A stretch of 7,620 nucleotides of DNA, taken from contig JAJYOH010000278.1 in NCBI GenBank assembly GCA_021796315.1, forward strand, positions 1 to 7,620, in the 5' to 3' direction. Source of the DNA: Chloroflexota bacterium (lineage in GTDB: Bacteria > Chloroflexota > Anaerolineae > Anaerolineales > Villigracilaceae). The first letter of the stretch is position 1, and each line of letters opens with the position of its first letter. The notes under the pieces are model-generated. The model did not search any database. It saw only the letters and a program-made list of their open reading frames with translations, and had not been told where the DNA came from. Made by a program: the position numbers and the translations under genes. This document shows, in pieces, positions 1,380-5,862 of the stretch.

Positions 1380-2303
1380 TTATTTTGTATTCGAAACCAA
1401 ACCACGCGAACCGTCCACTTGAATCCATTGTCCATCGTGAAGCTGCGTTGTTCCATTGAGGGCCCCCATCACTGCCGGGACGCCATATTCGCGGGCAACG
1501 ATGGCTGCGTGAGACACTGCGCCACCCGTATCAACGACAACCGCTGCCGCGCGCTGGAAGAGTGGAGTCCAGGCTGGATTGGTAAGTGGCGCAACCAGCA
1601 CATCTCCGGGTTGCAATTTTCCAAATTCAGAAACATCACGGACGATCCGCGCGGGACCGTGGGAAATTCCGGGGCTGCCGGCTGATCCGCGCAAGATGAC
1701 GTTTTCATCCGCCGATGTTTGTGACTCCATCACCAGCAGGCGAGGATCAAACATCGGTTGGTTCGCTAGTGATTCGCGCTTTGCTCGGCGGCGAACGATC
1801 AACGCGCGGACTCGCGCGATCGTTTCACTGGAGGGCGGCCATGGATTGCCAAACATCTCGAGTTCATCCAATTTCAAATGGAAAACATCCATGGTTTCAT
1901 CGAGCGCACCGACTTGACTCAGGCGATACCCAAGCTCCAGTGCCACATGTCGCACCAGTGGCTGCGCTAGTGTCGCATAAAAATGTGTATCCTCGCGAAT
2001 TTGAAATAACGCGCGTGTATTTGTAAGAGACTTCAAAAACAGTTGGCGTAACGGCCATCGTCCAAGCGCGTTACGCTCAAGTAATTCATCTCGCTCGCGT
2101 TTCCATTCGTGGTAACTACTCGTTTCTTGTGGATCGGAGGCGGCCAGGACTTTCAAGATTCCAAGCACCACCTCGGGCTGGTCTTTCCATGCCGGCTGAG
2201 AGATGGTCAATGCAGTTTCGCGATGACCATATTTGAAGAGAAACTTGGAGAAATTCTGAAGAAAGTCCTGGCCCGCCTGTGATCGCTGCAACGCTGAATG
2301 CAA
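1380..2303 (-). CDS. C-terminal half of an interrupted PEP-utilizing dikinase: linker plus phosphohistidine domain
   Basis: This 307-residue open stretch carries the swivelling phosphohistidine domain of the PEP-synthase/PPDK/rifampin-phosphotransferase superfamily. A linker region contains FLFKYGHRET (21-30) and ISQPAWKDQPEVVLGILK (34-51). Then come SPGISHGPARIV (210-221), VLVAPLTNPAWTPLF (235-249) and the catalytic motif TGGAVSHAAIVAREYG (259-274), with His265 the expected phospho-acceptor. The protein ends shortly after QVDGSRGLV. It therefore lacks the C-terminal PEP/pyruvate-binding TIM barrel of true PpsA, as in rifampin phosphotransferases. The frame is the same as that of the N-terminal half at 2343-4109. 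The two are separated only by a TAG in an inserted 163-bp element. The TTG at 2303 has no ribosome binding site, so independent translation is doubtful. In the uninterrupted gene this part would be residues 546-852, with the active His at 810. It is best read as the 3' part of a broken gene. Confidence 0.85.
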   Translation of the reverse strand: MHSALQRSQAGQDFLQNFSKFLFKYGHRETALTISQPAWKDQPEVVLGILKVLAASDPQETSSYHEWKRERDELLERNALGRWPLRQLFLKSLTNTRALFQIREDTHFYATLAQPLVRHVALELGYRLSQVGALDETMDVFHLKLDELEMFGNPWPPSSETIARVRALIVRRRAKRESLANQPMFDPRLLVMESQTSADENVILRGSAGSPGISHGPARIVRDVSEFGKLQPGDVLVAPLTNPAWTPLFQRAAAVVVDTGGAVSHAAIVAREYGVPAVMGALNGTTQLHDGQWIQVDGSRGLVSNTK

Positions 2304-2306
2304 TTC

Positions 2307-2314
2307 GTTTGAAT
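2307..2314. repeat. Target-site duplication, left copy (GTTTGAAT)
   Basis: An identical 8-mer directly abuts the left terminal inverted repeat of the 163-bp element. Its partner is at 2478-2485. On the minus strand both copies read through Ser-Asn codons (TCA AAC) in the same frame of the dikinase gene. This pins down the ancestral sequence as ...NDSNELHS.... Confidence 0.88.
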
Positions 2315-2477
2315 GTACTTGTTTACCGTGCGCAAAAGTGCCCTATCTGTGGCGGCCACGTTTGTTTTCGACTTGATTGCGCCACAGGTGCGGCCAGCAC
2401 CGGTGGCGCATTGCAGTTGTTTGGCGATTTAAATTCCATATGTGCCGCTTTTCTGACTCAAGACGGTAAACAAGTAC
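2315..2477. mobile_element. 163-bp MITE-like element inserted in the dikinase gene
   Basis: The element has perfect 15-bp terminal inverted repeats: GTACTTGTTTACCGT at 2315-2329 and its reverse complement at 2463-2477. It is bounded by the 8-bp direct repeat GTTTGAAT on both sides (2307-2314 and 2478-2485), a clean target-site duplication. At its centre (2378-2410) lies a nested hairpin: an 8-bp outer stem TGCGCCAC/GTGGCGCA, an A-G mismatch, a 5-bp inner stem GGTGC/GCACC and a 5-nt loop. There is no room for a transposase, so it must have been moved in trans. The 8-bp duplication and a GTA-starting end would fit IS66-like or other 8-bp-duplicating families, but I cannot assign one. It adds 57 codons with its duplication, keeping frame, and introduces one TAG in the minus-strand reading frame of the host gene. 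Confidence 0.88.
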
Positions 2478-4109
2478 GTTTGAATCATTTTGAGCAAATA
2501 TTTCATGCAGTGCAGCATCACGCCGAATTTGCATGGCAAGTGCTTCAAGCGCGCGATTGTTTTCCGTTGTCTTTGTCTCGGCACCTATGATCAAGGTGCC
2601 CAAATGGTTCTTCTCGCCACATATTGCCAACAAGGCCCACAGGATTCCCGCACTCAAAAGCGTTTGAGGAAGATATCGTTCGCGCAGATCCATCACGCGC
2701 GGGATCAAAGCCAGAGCCGCGTGCAAAGTTTCCAAGTTCTGTTCCCAACTAATTGACCTTGGATTGCGTTGCTCAAGTTCATGTGCACTTGCTAATACTT
2801 CAGGGATGATTGCTTTAACCTGCCATTGGAATGGATCGTAATGACGCGTTCGCCAAAGGGTGAGCCAGGGCGTGATCAACATACTCGGTGATGGATGAAC
2901 TTCCGGCGGCTCAAAGCGCACAACCACACCGTCTTCTTCCACCAGAGCCTTATCCGGATCTGGCGCGCTCCTGCCAATCATCACCACCAACAGATTTCCA
3001 ATCGCGCGCTCAATCGCGCCTGTGAATGTGGTGATATCCAGCGGATAGGGACACGTTGGCCACATCTCTACCAGCATCGGGACCACCATCCGCATTGGAC
3101 CCGTAATCTTCACGGGTTTCGGAAGCGCGGTCATCGGTCGTGCTTGAAGTATGTAAAACCTGCCTTTCTTTGATCCACCCATTACCCACGCCCATTCGAT
3201 ATCTTGGGGCGCGGTGTAATGCTTTTCGATCTGGCATCCCAATCTTGCCAGGCTACGCAATGCAGCAGGAGATAAGATTGTCGGGCCCCGCTGATCTGTG
3301 GGCGTTGTCTGCTCCGTTCCACCGCCTGCTTTGGATCGGATGATTACTTCACGTCTGCCGACACGTTGTTCCTTGATACGCAAGCTGCGCTTATTCACAA
3401 CAAAATGATCCGGTGTGACCAAGCCGCTGACAACTGCTTCGCCCAAACCGGGGTTGGCGTCAATCACCAATTCATCTCGTGTACCGCTCACTGGATTAGC
3501 TGTGAACATCACGCCAGCAACATCCGCCTGCACCATTCTTTGCACAACAACCGCCAGCTTAACGGAAGCCTGATCGATGTTTTGATGGGCGCGATAAAGG
3601 ATTGCACGTTCAGACCAGAGCGAAGCCCAACAGGTGCGGACCGCATCCAATAAGGCCTGTTCGCCAACAACATTCAGAATGGTTTCCTGTTGTCCCGCGA
3701 AAGCAGCGCCGGGTAAATCCTCAGCCGTTGCACTGGAACGAACGACTATTGCTCCACTGCCAAGTTGGCGATATGCATTTATGAAAGCATTCGCCATTGA
3801 GTCTGGTAAGGACGCGTGAAGAATCAAATCACGAATATCCTGACTGGCTTCCTTCACTGCGGCAGGATCATCTACCTGAATCACAGCAAGCTTCTTTTGC
3901 ATTTGTTCCTGCAGGCCATTGGCCCCAAGCATTGAATCGTATGCGGCGGTTATGATCACAAATCCTGGAGGAACATTGAAGCCTGCCTTGATTAGTTCTC
4001 CGAGATTTGCTCCTTTGCCCCCTGCAAGTGCTAGGCTCTTGTGCTCAAAGTATGCCAACGGTGCAACAAACAGCGAATTAGTATTGCGGGATTGAGATGA
4101 GATGAACAT
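2343..4109 (-). CDS. N-terminal half of an interrupted PEP-utilizing dikinase (PEP synthase/rifampin-phosphotransferase-like): ATP-grasp domain plus linker
   Basis: 588 residues from the chosen ATG at 4107-4109, which has TAGGAG 5 nt upstream. An ATG 45 nt further up (4154) has no ribosome binding site and overlaps the -10 box, so I reject it. ATP-grasp (PPDK_N-type) motifs appear in order: GGKGANLGEL (30-39), VRSSATAEDLPGAAFAGQQ (123-141), DVAGVMFTANPVSG (196-209), GLGEAVVSG (221-229), and DIEWAW...YILQARPMT (303-327). The domain uses ATP to phosphorylate a histidine on the C-terminal domain, which passes the phosphate on to a substrate. Residues from about 340 to 544 form the variable linker/substrate domain. 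The genuine sequence ends at Asn544 (codon ending at 2478). The last 44 residues are encoded by an inserted element and stop at TAG 2343-2345. Without the insertion the protein would be 852 residues, close to the length and domain order of rifampin phosphotransferases. Its real substrate is unknown. It is first in the operon, so the insertion may also affect downstream expression. Confidence 0.88.
   Translation of the reverse strand: MFISSQSRNTNSLFVAPLAYFEHKSLALAGGKGANLGELIKAGFNVPPGFVIITAAYDSMLGANGLQEQMQKKLAVIQVDDPAAVKEASQDIRDLILHASLPDSMANAFINAYRQLGSGAIVVRSSATAEDLPGAAFAGQQETILNVVGEQALLDAVRTCWASLWSERAILYRAHQNIDQASVKLAVVVQRMVQADVAGVMFTANPVSGTRDELVIDANPGLGEAVVSGLVTPDHFVVNKRSLRIKEQRVGRREVIIRSKAGGGTEQTTPTDQRGPTILSPAALRSLARLGCQIEKHYTAPQDIEWAWVMGGSKKGRFYILQARPMTALPKPVKITGPMRMVVPMLVEMWPTCPYPLDITTFTGAIERAIGNLLVVMIGRSAPDPDKALVEEDGVVVRFEPPEVHPSPSMLITPWLTLWRTRHYDPFQWQVKAIIPEVLASAHELEQRNPRSISWEQNLETLHAALALIPRVMDLRERYLPQTLLSAGILWALLAICGEKNHLGTLIIGAETKTTENNRALEALAMQIRRDAALHEIFAQNDSNVLVYRLESEKRHIWNLNRQTTAMRHRCWPHLWRNQVENKRGRHR
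2478..2485. repeat. Target-site duplication, right copy (GTTTGAAT)
   Basis: This is the second copy of the 8-bp duplication, directly after the right terminal inverted repeat. The distance between the two copies is 171 bp, an exact multiple of three. Confidence 0.88.
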
Positions 4110-4114
4110 ATAAA

Positions 4115-4120
4115 CTCCTA
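4115..4120 (-). promoter_or_regulatory. Ribosome binding site deciding the dikinase start
   Basis: The minus strand reads TAGGAG here, followed by TTTAT and the ATG at 4109. It is the only Shine-Dalgarno-like sequence near any candidate start of this frame. It therefore moves the start 15 codons downstream of the longest possible ORF. Confidence 0.8.
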
Positions 4121-4154
4121 AGACATGGAACGAGTACCACTTTTGATTTTTCAT

Positions 4155-4632: not shown

Positions 4633-4799
4633 AACGGAAACTTAAATAACGCTGTATGCTTTAGGCGCGTAGTGCTCTGCTAGGGTAAAAGCGAAGGAAA
4701 GGAGACTAACTGATCCGTAGTGTAAGATCATTTCTGTAAGATTGAATGAAAGGTAGGTCAAGTGTTATCCTTGCGGTGTTCAGACGAAAGGAAAACATC
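4633..4799. other. Gap between the ComM fragment and the transposase start
   Basis: No gene is supported here. The right part (about 4710-4799), including GTAAGATCATTTCTGTAAGATTG, most likely belongs to the 5' end of the IS256-family element and its promoter. The left part holds nothing I recognise. With no right IS end in the window, the left terminal inverted repeat cannot be proved by self-comparison. Confidence 0.4.
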
Positions 4800-5262
4800 A
4801 TGACCTACGGCGAAGATTTTACCTTACCTGCGGAGTTATTGGAGCAGGTGCAAGAGCAAGGACTGGATGTTTTGCCGGAGTTGATCCGGATCATGATCAA
4901 CCATGCGATGCTGGCTGAACGCGAACAGCATCTGCATGCAGAACCTTACCAGAGAACCATAGAGCGCGAAGTGCATGCCAATGGCTTCAAGCCGAAGACG
5001 ATGCGGACCCGTGTCGGAGAGATCGCCTTTGCAGTGCCACAAGTGCGGGAAGGCGGGTCTACCCACAGGCTCTGGAGAAGGGCTTGCGCAGTGAACGAGC
5101 TCTGACCTTGGCGCTGGCGGAGATGTATGTCCAAGGCGTATCCACTTGCAAAGTCAAAGCCATTACCGAACAGTTATGCGGAGTGAATGTCTCGTCATCG
5201 ACCCTGAAAGTGCGCGGGGCGTTGGTGGGCCAAGCGGCTGCGCAGATGGATGCGGAGCTTGA
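4800..5262 (+). pseudogene. IS256-family (mutator-type) transposase, truncated and frameshifted
   Basis: It starts at an ATG at 4800 with AAAGGA 7 nt upstream. The first 86 codons read MTYGEDFTLPAELLEQV... through VREGG, typical of the N-terminal part of IS256-type DDE transposases, including a HANGFKPKTMRTRVGEI stretch. At about 5058 one T is missing where GGFYPQALEKGL is expected. The sequence continues in the +2 frame as YPQALEKGLRSERALTLALA, then EMYVQGVSTCKVKAITEQLC and GVNVSSST. About 21 extra nucleotides follow before AAAQMDAEL. Similarity stops near 5262, at roughly residue 155 of an expected 400 or so, before all three catalytic acidic residues. It cannot encode an active enzyme. The left IS end is probably within 4710-4745, but I could not identify the terminal repeat with confidence. 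The right end is missing; there the sequence switches to a DUF4157 gene remnant on the other strand. Confidence 0.85.
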
Positions 5263-5265
5263 TCC

Positions 5266-5602
5266 TCGTGTGACCTGTTCGGCCACGCGATCTGCTTCGC
5301 GTTCGCAGGCATCTTGTGCGGTATTTACTGCTAACTTCGCTTGGAGTTTCGTTTGAGATTTGTGATGTAAAGGTATGAGGCTGAAATTTTGGCTAAAGTC
5401 TGTTGTTACTGGAGCTGTCGTGCCGGCATCCGATTTGTTAGATTTGAGGTTGAAGCAACCTTGGCGCCGGCCGTTTCTCAATTGAATGTTGCAGAGGCAG
5501 GAAAGGAACCGCCAGTTGACTTTGTTGAAACGCGTCTTTCCCTTGCCGCCTAAAGTTTGATGGGTTCTGCTTTAGAGATTGCTTTTGCGCAAAAGTTACC
5601 AT
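5266..5602 (-). pseudogene. N-terminal remnant of a DUF4157 (eCIS core domain) protein
   Basis: On the minus strand an ATG at 5600-5602 opens a frame beginning MVTFAQKQSLKQNPSN that runs to LLQPQI and then stops at about 5430. One base later the neighbouring frame continues with NKSDAGTTAPVTTDFSQNFS. It leads into the highly characteristic DUF4157 entry motif LQAKLAVNTAQDACEREAD followed by RVAEQVTR. Deleting a single base near 5430 would give QINKSDAG and join the two. DUF4157 proteins are linked to extracellular contractile injection systems and often carry a downstream HExxH metalloprotease-like motif. That part is lost because the homology ends at about 5266, where the truncated IS256 transposase begins on the opposite strand. 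The open frame that continues antisense through the transposase is accidental. No strong Shine-Dalgarno sequence precedes the ATG. Together with the two genes to its right it may have formed one minus-strand eCIS-associated set. Confidence 0.72.
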
Positions 5603-5672
5603 ATATCAATTTCTAATTAATGCATGGCTGTCCGAAAATGTACGTCAGCGCGTTTAGAAGGAGTTATTTAAC

Positions 5673-5843
5673 ATTACAGCGCAAGGTCAAGCAATCGTTC
5701 CTTGCCAATTCTCCCTCACCCTTTCCCTCTCCCAAAGGGAGAGGAGACTCCCTTCCCCATTTGAGGGAAGGGTTGGGGATGAGGGCGAAAACGGTAGAAA
5801 AGCCATGAGCAGAACCCTCAAAGCTCTAACTTTGCGCTGTAAT
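5673..5843. mobile_element. 171-bp MITE-like palindromic element with a C/G-rich repeat core
   Basis: The outer ends are inverted repeats of 15 bp with one mismatch: ATTACAGCGCAAGGT at 5673-5687 and the reverse complement of ATTACAGCGCAAAGT at 5829-5843. The inner 5711-5785 region is a different, imperfect inverted repeat. CCCTCACCCTTTCCCTCTCCC (5713-5733) can pair with GGGAAGGG...GGATGAGGG (about 5765-5785). A tight hairpin CTCTCCC-AAA-GGGAGAG lies within it (about 5727-5743). The CCCTCACCC...CCCTCTCCC motif is a widespread intergenic repeat type in bacteria. I see no clear target-site duplication at the outer ends; TTAA-like sequence occurs on both sides, but offset. It lies just after the stop of the transthyretin-like gene, so its hairpins may also influence the 3' end of that transcript. 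No protein is encoded. Confidence 0.6.
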
Positions 5844-5862
5844 ATTAATTTGTGTGAAAAAA

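Follow-up and report, generated by a model that had tools for sequence, protein, structure and literature searches.

A 163-bp MITE with IS66-type ends interrupting a dikinase-like gene in a Chloroflexota genome

The window (the whole stretch of DNA analysed, 7,620 nucleotides) contains a dikinase-like gene interrupted by a 163-bp non-autonomous element, a MITE. The explanation in which we place high confidence is that the MITE was moved by an IS66 transposase of the ISBst12 type, encoded elsewhere in the cell, and that the gene is very probably left without function. A single-ORF transposase of this type would recognise the 15-bp ends, acting, as we infer, in trans; the element would insert at a staggered 8-bp cut in the gene, and repair of the cut would leave an 8-bp duplication. 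Translation would then enter the element, proceed for 44 residues and halt at TAG, yielding a product that retains the ATP domain and some of the central one but lacks the phosphohistidine domain. The features involved are listed in Table 1.

Table 1. Positions in the window of the element, its predicted hairpins and the interrupted gene
Feature	Position	Strand	Remarks
MITE, 163 bp	2315..2477	.	one copy in the assembly
Left terminal inverted repeat, GTACTTGTTTACCGT	2315..2329	+	identical to the end of an IS66-type element on contig C16
Right terminal inverted repeat	2463..2477	-	perfect match to the left repeat over 15 bp
Target-site duplication, copy 1, GTTTGAAT	2307..2314	.
Target-site duplication, copy 2, GTTTGAAT	2478..2485	.
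TAG stop contributed by the element	2343..2345	-	in the frame of the host gene
Interrupted gene, 5' part	2478..4154	-	with the element-derived tail, 588 residues in protein P0001, 603 in the longest reading
Interrupted gene, 3' part	1380..2314	-	first in-frame start past the TAG is a TTG at 2303
PPDK_N ATP-binding domain (PF01326)	3117..4028	-	Pfam
PEP-utilizers phosphohistidine domain (PF00391)	1401..1613	-	Pfam
Consensus hairpin 1, arm 1 (columns 30-40)	2344..2354	+	11 of 11 pairs here and in G044, 10 in G017, 8 in G272
Consensus hairpin 1, arm 2 (columns 66-76)	2380..2390	+
Consensus hairpin 2, arm 1 (columns 83-95)	2397..2409	+	9 of 13 pairs here, 12 in G044, 11 in G017, 10 in G272
Consensus hairpin 2, arm 2 (columns 119-131)	2433..2445	+

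Structure of the element

The terminal inverted repeats agree at 15 of 15 positions and the 8-bp duplication is likewise perfect, a ninth identical base being the element's own last C. Both can be seen directly in the sequence, as the initial annotation had reported. When inverted 12-mers up to 400 bp apart, flanked by a duplication of at least 6 bp, were searched for, the window produced a single match, and none was found in 300 random windows built from its dinucleotide frequencies. The 171-bp spacing of the duplicates corresponds to 57 codons, and the host frame is identical on either side of the element; ahead of the gene's own end, the sense frame contains one stop, the TAG, preceded by 44 element-encoded residues. 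The continuous frame and single stop described earlier are thus upheld, and the restored protein of 852 residues, proposed at the same time, agrees with the arithmetic from the start of the 588-residue P0001.

The element is short, codes for no transposase, is bounded by terminal repeats and a target duplication, has ends like those of an autonomous element and belongs to a repeated family, all traits by which MITEs are recognised. Several copies per host genome are common among MITEs, not required; here there is one copy (11 of 11 candidates scored). Further copies, which the initial annotation had proposed to look for, are absent from this assembly, related ones being present in three other genomes, as described below.

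In the window, no Rfam family is matched at gathering scores, and the + strand frame through the element matches no Pfam or NCBIfam family. A frame of 103 codons on the + strand (2279-2590) crosses the element and contains the motif CPICGG; comparison of the copies lends no support to coding. The element was rejected as a coding insert: mismatches between copies show no 3-base periodicity, and the copies from genomes G017 and G272 have stops in the + strand frame. A terminator-like site is present inside the element at 2348-2369, on the + strand, antisense to the host gene; two terminator-like sites occur in 2150-2650, against 0.6 expected.

The genome is a draft in 63 contigs, and the insertion might for this reason be an assembly artefact, or a variant present in a minority only, and so misrepresent the genome. 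This is most improbable: the target duplication is perfect, the flanks are intact and the site lies within a 133.6-kb contig. The truncated protein P0001, moreover, occurs on three contigs, possibly all from one sample, and the element is single-copy in the assembly, so that repeat collapse is unlikely.

Two further traces of mobile elements are found in the window. Another MITE, about 180 bp long and unrelated to the first, lies at 5668-5848 and has imperfect terminal repeats of 20 bp. Of 174 candidate places in this genome, the 40 that were scored every one gave a match, at 94-98% for the 39 besides the window copy. Compared by eye, nine of ten copies are flanked by 4-bp duplications (TTAA, CTAA or CTAT), which suggests an IS5-type driver. 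At 4746-5356, a decayed fragment of an IS256 (Mutator) transposase is split over two frames.

The interrupted gene

When the protein database was searched using the 5' part of the gene, 7998 proteins were scored, the best 120 of which comprise the truncated P0001 (588 residues, on three contigs) and 119 homologues, 61-76% identical and mostly 840-870 residues long. The two gene halves were aligned separately to each of the 119: in 118 cases the overlap is exactly two residues, the ones that the duplicated 8 bp encode, and in the remaining case it is five. Since the aligned halves overlap, none of the 119 carries an insert at this site; the listed homologues read through without the 57 codons, as anticipated in the initial annotation. 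Its claim of a short element inserted in frame into a dikinase-like gene is borne out by this result and by related elements found elsewhere with 8-bp duplications of their own.

The position of the site within the protein was read from a model of one homologue (P0002), built from 62 sequences (mean pLDDT 80.8, pTM 0.64). In this protein the ATP domain spans residues 28-330 and the histidine domain 777-847; the duplicated residues correspond to 543-544. The model contains an all-helical stretch at about 409-724, which holds the insertion site, at the turn between helices 532-540 and 543-552. As modelled, the insertion falls within the central helical domain, some 210 residues past the ATP domain and about 230 ahead of the histidine domain. 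The first description, of a split exactly between the two functional halves, is therefore incorrect, although the TAG does separate the kinase part from the phospho-acceptor part, in that the stop removes the histidine domain.

Among solved structures, the best Foldseek match of the P0002 model is the Listeria rifampin phosphotransferase (E 8e-43), with a TM score of 0.45 and an rmsd of 12.5 over the whole chain. The rifampin phosphotransferase fold (PDB 5hv1, 5fbs) is similarly made of ATP, central and C-terminal histidine parts, and ATP, ligand and His domains are described for a model of an RPH-like protein in the available text of PMC10948481. The likeness has a limit: with NCBIfam NF041857 (rifampin phosphotransferase), all three homologues scanned score 404-413 bits, far under the curated cut-off of 999. 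Some sources name the homologues "pyruvate,water dikinase" or "rifampicin phosphotransferase".

The gene is an accessory one: one of five congeners has a match at E 1e-60, with 46% identity, and, this genome aside, none of 152 genomes of the family is listed with a match above 53%.

The 3' part of the gene has no ATG start near its beginning, and no sigma-70-like promoter was found in 2150-2650. Given a stop ahead of the histidine domain and a 3' part lacking an ATG start, the interruption has very probably abolished the function of the gene, which encodes an accessory enzyme; the plainest interpretation is that an accessory gene was lost. The two gene parts could in principle be made separately. 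The initial annotation had considered that the element is tolerated, or used as a switch, and some features fit: the 57 codons preserve the frame with a single stop, both domains are still recognised, and an insert might be tolerated at the site, a turn joining two helices (532-540 and 543-552) in the modelled homologue. Enzyme activity would then be kept by read-through of the stop or by separate translation, or restored by precise excision. We regard this as very unlikely, however. A preserved frame has a one in three chance, and the 3' part starts only at a TTG, with no sigma-70-like site in the region searched. No full-length allele close to this strain is present among the 120 proteins listed, the nearest full-length homologue being 76% identical, so that no intact close allele is in view. 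The element is, in addition, single-copy, and the proposal of a switch finds no support in these results.

Apart from the element, the gene has no further stop and no frameshift. Its conservation was evaluated against 114 full-length homologues, the five shorter sequences among the 119 being excluded; in this set 306 positions reach at least 95% conservation, and each homologue was left out in turn. The gene departs from the conserved residue at 10 of the 306 positions, the homologues at 0-12 (median 4), and 10 or more departures are found in nine of the 114. This degree of departure, somewhat higher than in most homologues, also speaks against a tolerated element; the pattern is compatible with a recent insertion, and perhaps with slightly relaxed constraint. 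A recent insertion, as had been suggested, is plausible in view of the perfect repeats and duplication and of the absence of other stops or frameshifts.

An in-frame position within genes is known from the Rickettsia palindromic elements, which are of similar size (about 150 bp) and, according to the available text of PMC10969869, form translational fusions; the present element, in contrast, brings a TAG stop, and the open frame through the element typical of the Rickettsia type was not found. Its in-frame length looks like chance.

Related copies and IS66 ends

Related elements were sought in three ways. A DNA search of 152 genomes of the family, with up to five candidates scored per listed genome, found related DNA in two others, G044 and G017. 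A pattern search of 400 genomes of the order, for the two ends spaced 118-147 bp apart, returned this copy, G044 and G272. A sequence model (R1) identified four genomes with the element among 400 of the order (this one, G044, G017 and G272) and this genome only among 396 of the class; for the model searches, seven first-look candidates per genome were scored among those shown, and copies may be missed. G272 belongs to another family than the other three. No exact match to the end-pair pattern was found in viral contigs, and no blastn match to the element in plasmids.

The copy in G044 is 162 bp long, with an exact duplication GAGTTAAG; the one in G272, 163 bp long, has CTGTATAA on either side, with one extra base on the right. 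In G044 (L009, 1714-2778), the gene that begins some 50 bp downstream of the element copy encodes a DDE transposase belonging to another family (PF13546). G017 contains seven half copies, three left and four right, each stopping at a contig end, as would be expected of a repeat whose copies are too alike to be assembled: all left halves have one sequence, as do the right ones over 85 shared bases. Two left-right pairs have common 8-bp flanks, TCTAACTC and TAATAGAA, and three halves are unpaired, from which at least five insertions follow; ten bases common to left and right halves imply a length of 163 bp there too.

Gene contexts in G017, read from the sequence, are as follows: one copy (C90/C29; L154, L012), flanked by TAATAGAA, is located 13 bases past the ATG at which a flavodoxin-like gene apparently starts, another (C72/C154) 18 bp ahead of an Fpg-like gene, a third (C106) 16 bp ahead of an ATPase-like gene and a fourth (C183) 38 bp ahead of the apparent ATG of a glyoxalase-like gene, while the half on C91 is past the end of a PIG-L-like gene. 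Sites near gene starts thus appear to recur among these copies, small as their number is.

The exact 15-bp end is present at three sites in the 4.08-Mb assembly. Two are the element's own ends; the third (C16:372-386) immediately follows an IS66 transposase C-terminus, the rest of which is lost at the contig start (G000 C16:1-386). This fragment matches PF03050 and NF033517, the latter with 52 bits where the cut-off is 180, a shortfall that would be expected for a fragment. A second IS66 copy in this genome, on C41 (PF03050), is frameshifted; one of its ends was located, with two changes, whereas a search for the other gave nothing. With the C41 copy frameshifted and the C16 one cut, the assembly of this genome contains no intact cognate transposase. 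The start of contig C62 (L103) holds the C-terminus of another IS66 transposase, different by eye; it was set aside, with no end within four mismatches in the first 3000 bases.

Used as a query, the C41 protein matched six of 400 genomes of the order. Two IS66 elements, in G143 and G009, were found through their similarity to C41 (61-70%). The G143 element is 1576 bp long (1247-2822 of L139), has ends one base different and contains a sense ORF of 501 aa (1309-2814), which leaves no room for tandem ORFs, shorter overlapping frames and a long antisense frame being left out of this count; no matching duplication is found at its flanks. The G009 element (1593 bp) is frameshifted, its ends are two bases different and it is flanked by an 8-bp duplication, CCGTCAAG. 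A C-to-G change at end position 12 is common to MITE copies (G017, G272) and IS66 copies (G143, G009); each end in G009 carries one further change.

Single ORFs characterise the ISBst12 group of IS66, one member of which, ISDge4, has one ORF, 14-base ends and an 8-bp repeat (available portion of PMC12898284). The elements found here resemble ISDge4 in the single ORF (G143) and in ends starting with GT; the 8-bp duplication is present in G009 and absent in G143. Two Paracoccus IS66 elements are also listed with an 8-bp duplication, in the part of PMC3281130 available. The 163-bp element differs from the ISBst12 group in lacking a transposase, only the ends being in common.

It might be objected that a transposase of another family, also making 8-bp duplications, moved the element, the IS66 likeness of the ends being incidental: beyond the ends, the longest match of the MITE core to four IS66 sequences is 13 bp, and no close IS66 match was found in the three copy-bearing genomes. 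In G017, the genome richest in copies, no IS66 transposase was found, and those of G044 and G272 are distant (27% and 24%). Such a coincidence is nevertheless very improbable, considering that the 15/15 match is to an IS66 end in the same genome, with only three exact sites in 4.08 Mb, and that the same change at end position 12 recurs in MITEs and IS66 elements. Judging from the ends, the element was most likely moved by an IS66-family, ISBst12-like transposase.

The conserved core and comparison with known MITEs

Across four lineages, from two families, the length of the element is 162-163 bp, with one single-base gap at 62-83% identity; being nearly free of indels at this divergence, the core may be constrained. 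In the consensus fold of three full copies, the terminal stem encloses three hairpins, two of 11 pairs each and a small one. In a five-row alignment 92.2% of the paired cells are able to pair, against 28-46% with the partners slid, and the two hairpins contain 82 pairs, against at most 57 under column shuffling (2000 shuffles). Changes on both sides are seen at five pairs, including one in the terminal repeat; 25 of 500 shuffles attain this count, and 91 of 500 attain the observed number of further pair types. Because the consensus structure was derived from the same sequences, these controls are biased towards it.

Folded alone, the window copy prefers another hairpin, formed by arm 2 of hairpin 1 with arm 1 of hairpin 2, and the G272 copy also folds otherwise than the two-hairpin consensus. 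With the terminal repeats removed, folding energies are only mildly below those of shuffled sequences (z of -2.5 here, -2.4 in G044 and -0.9 in G272; -1.1 and -1.3 for the G017 halves). With so few sequences, a structured core is a hint only. That selection keeps the length and the two internal hairpins, the core having a job of its own as a structured RNA, as a regulatory sequence near gene starts or as a transposition structure, is accordingly a doubtful, if conceivable, proposal.

Bacterial MITEs already described include MITEPsy1 (100 bp) and MITECca01 (about 240 bp), which, in the available text of PMC3189936 and PMC9769881, resemble the present element in being short, without a transposase, and in having terminal repeats similar to those of an IS of the host genome; MITEPsy1 likewise makes target duplications and interrupts two loci. 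They differ in the partner element: MITEPsy1 is related in its ends to ISPsy2 (listed as "IS5?"), with target duplications of 4 nt, and MITECca01 goes with an IS982 element, whereas the ends found here are those of IS66 and the duplication is of 8 bp. The present MITE is single-copy in the genome analysed, and G017 has five or more insertions of it. Text searches of the open literature, not exhaustive, found no paper on an IS66-type MITE, and "IS66" has no occurrence in the available text of a 2024 review of prokaryotic MITEs (PMC10969869).

The element thus represents a new MITE family of a familiar kind, of modest novelty, whose mechanism is ordinary and well supported. It provides a clean gene interruption by a MITE with IS66 (ISBst12-like) ends. 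For the host, this would be an ordinary loss of an accessory gene; should the core be under selection, the family would be a small test case for what bacterial MITEs contain apart from their ends.
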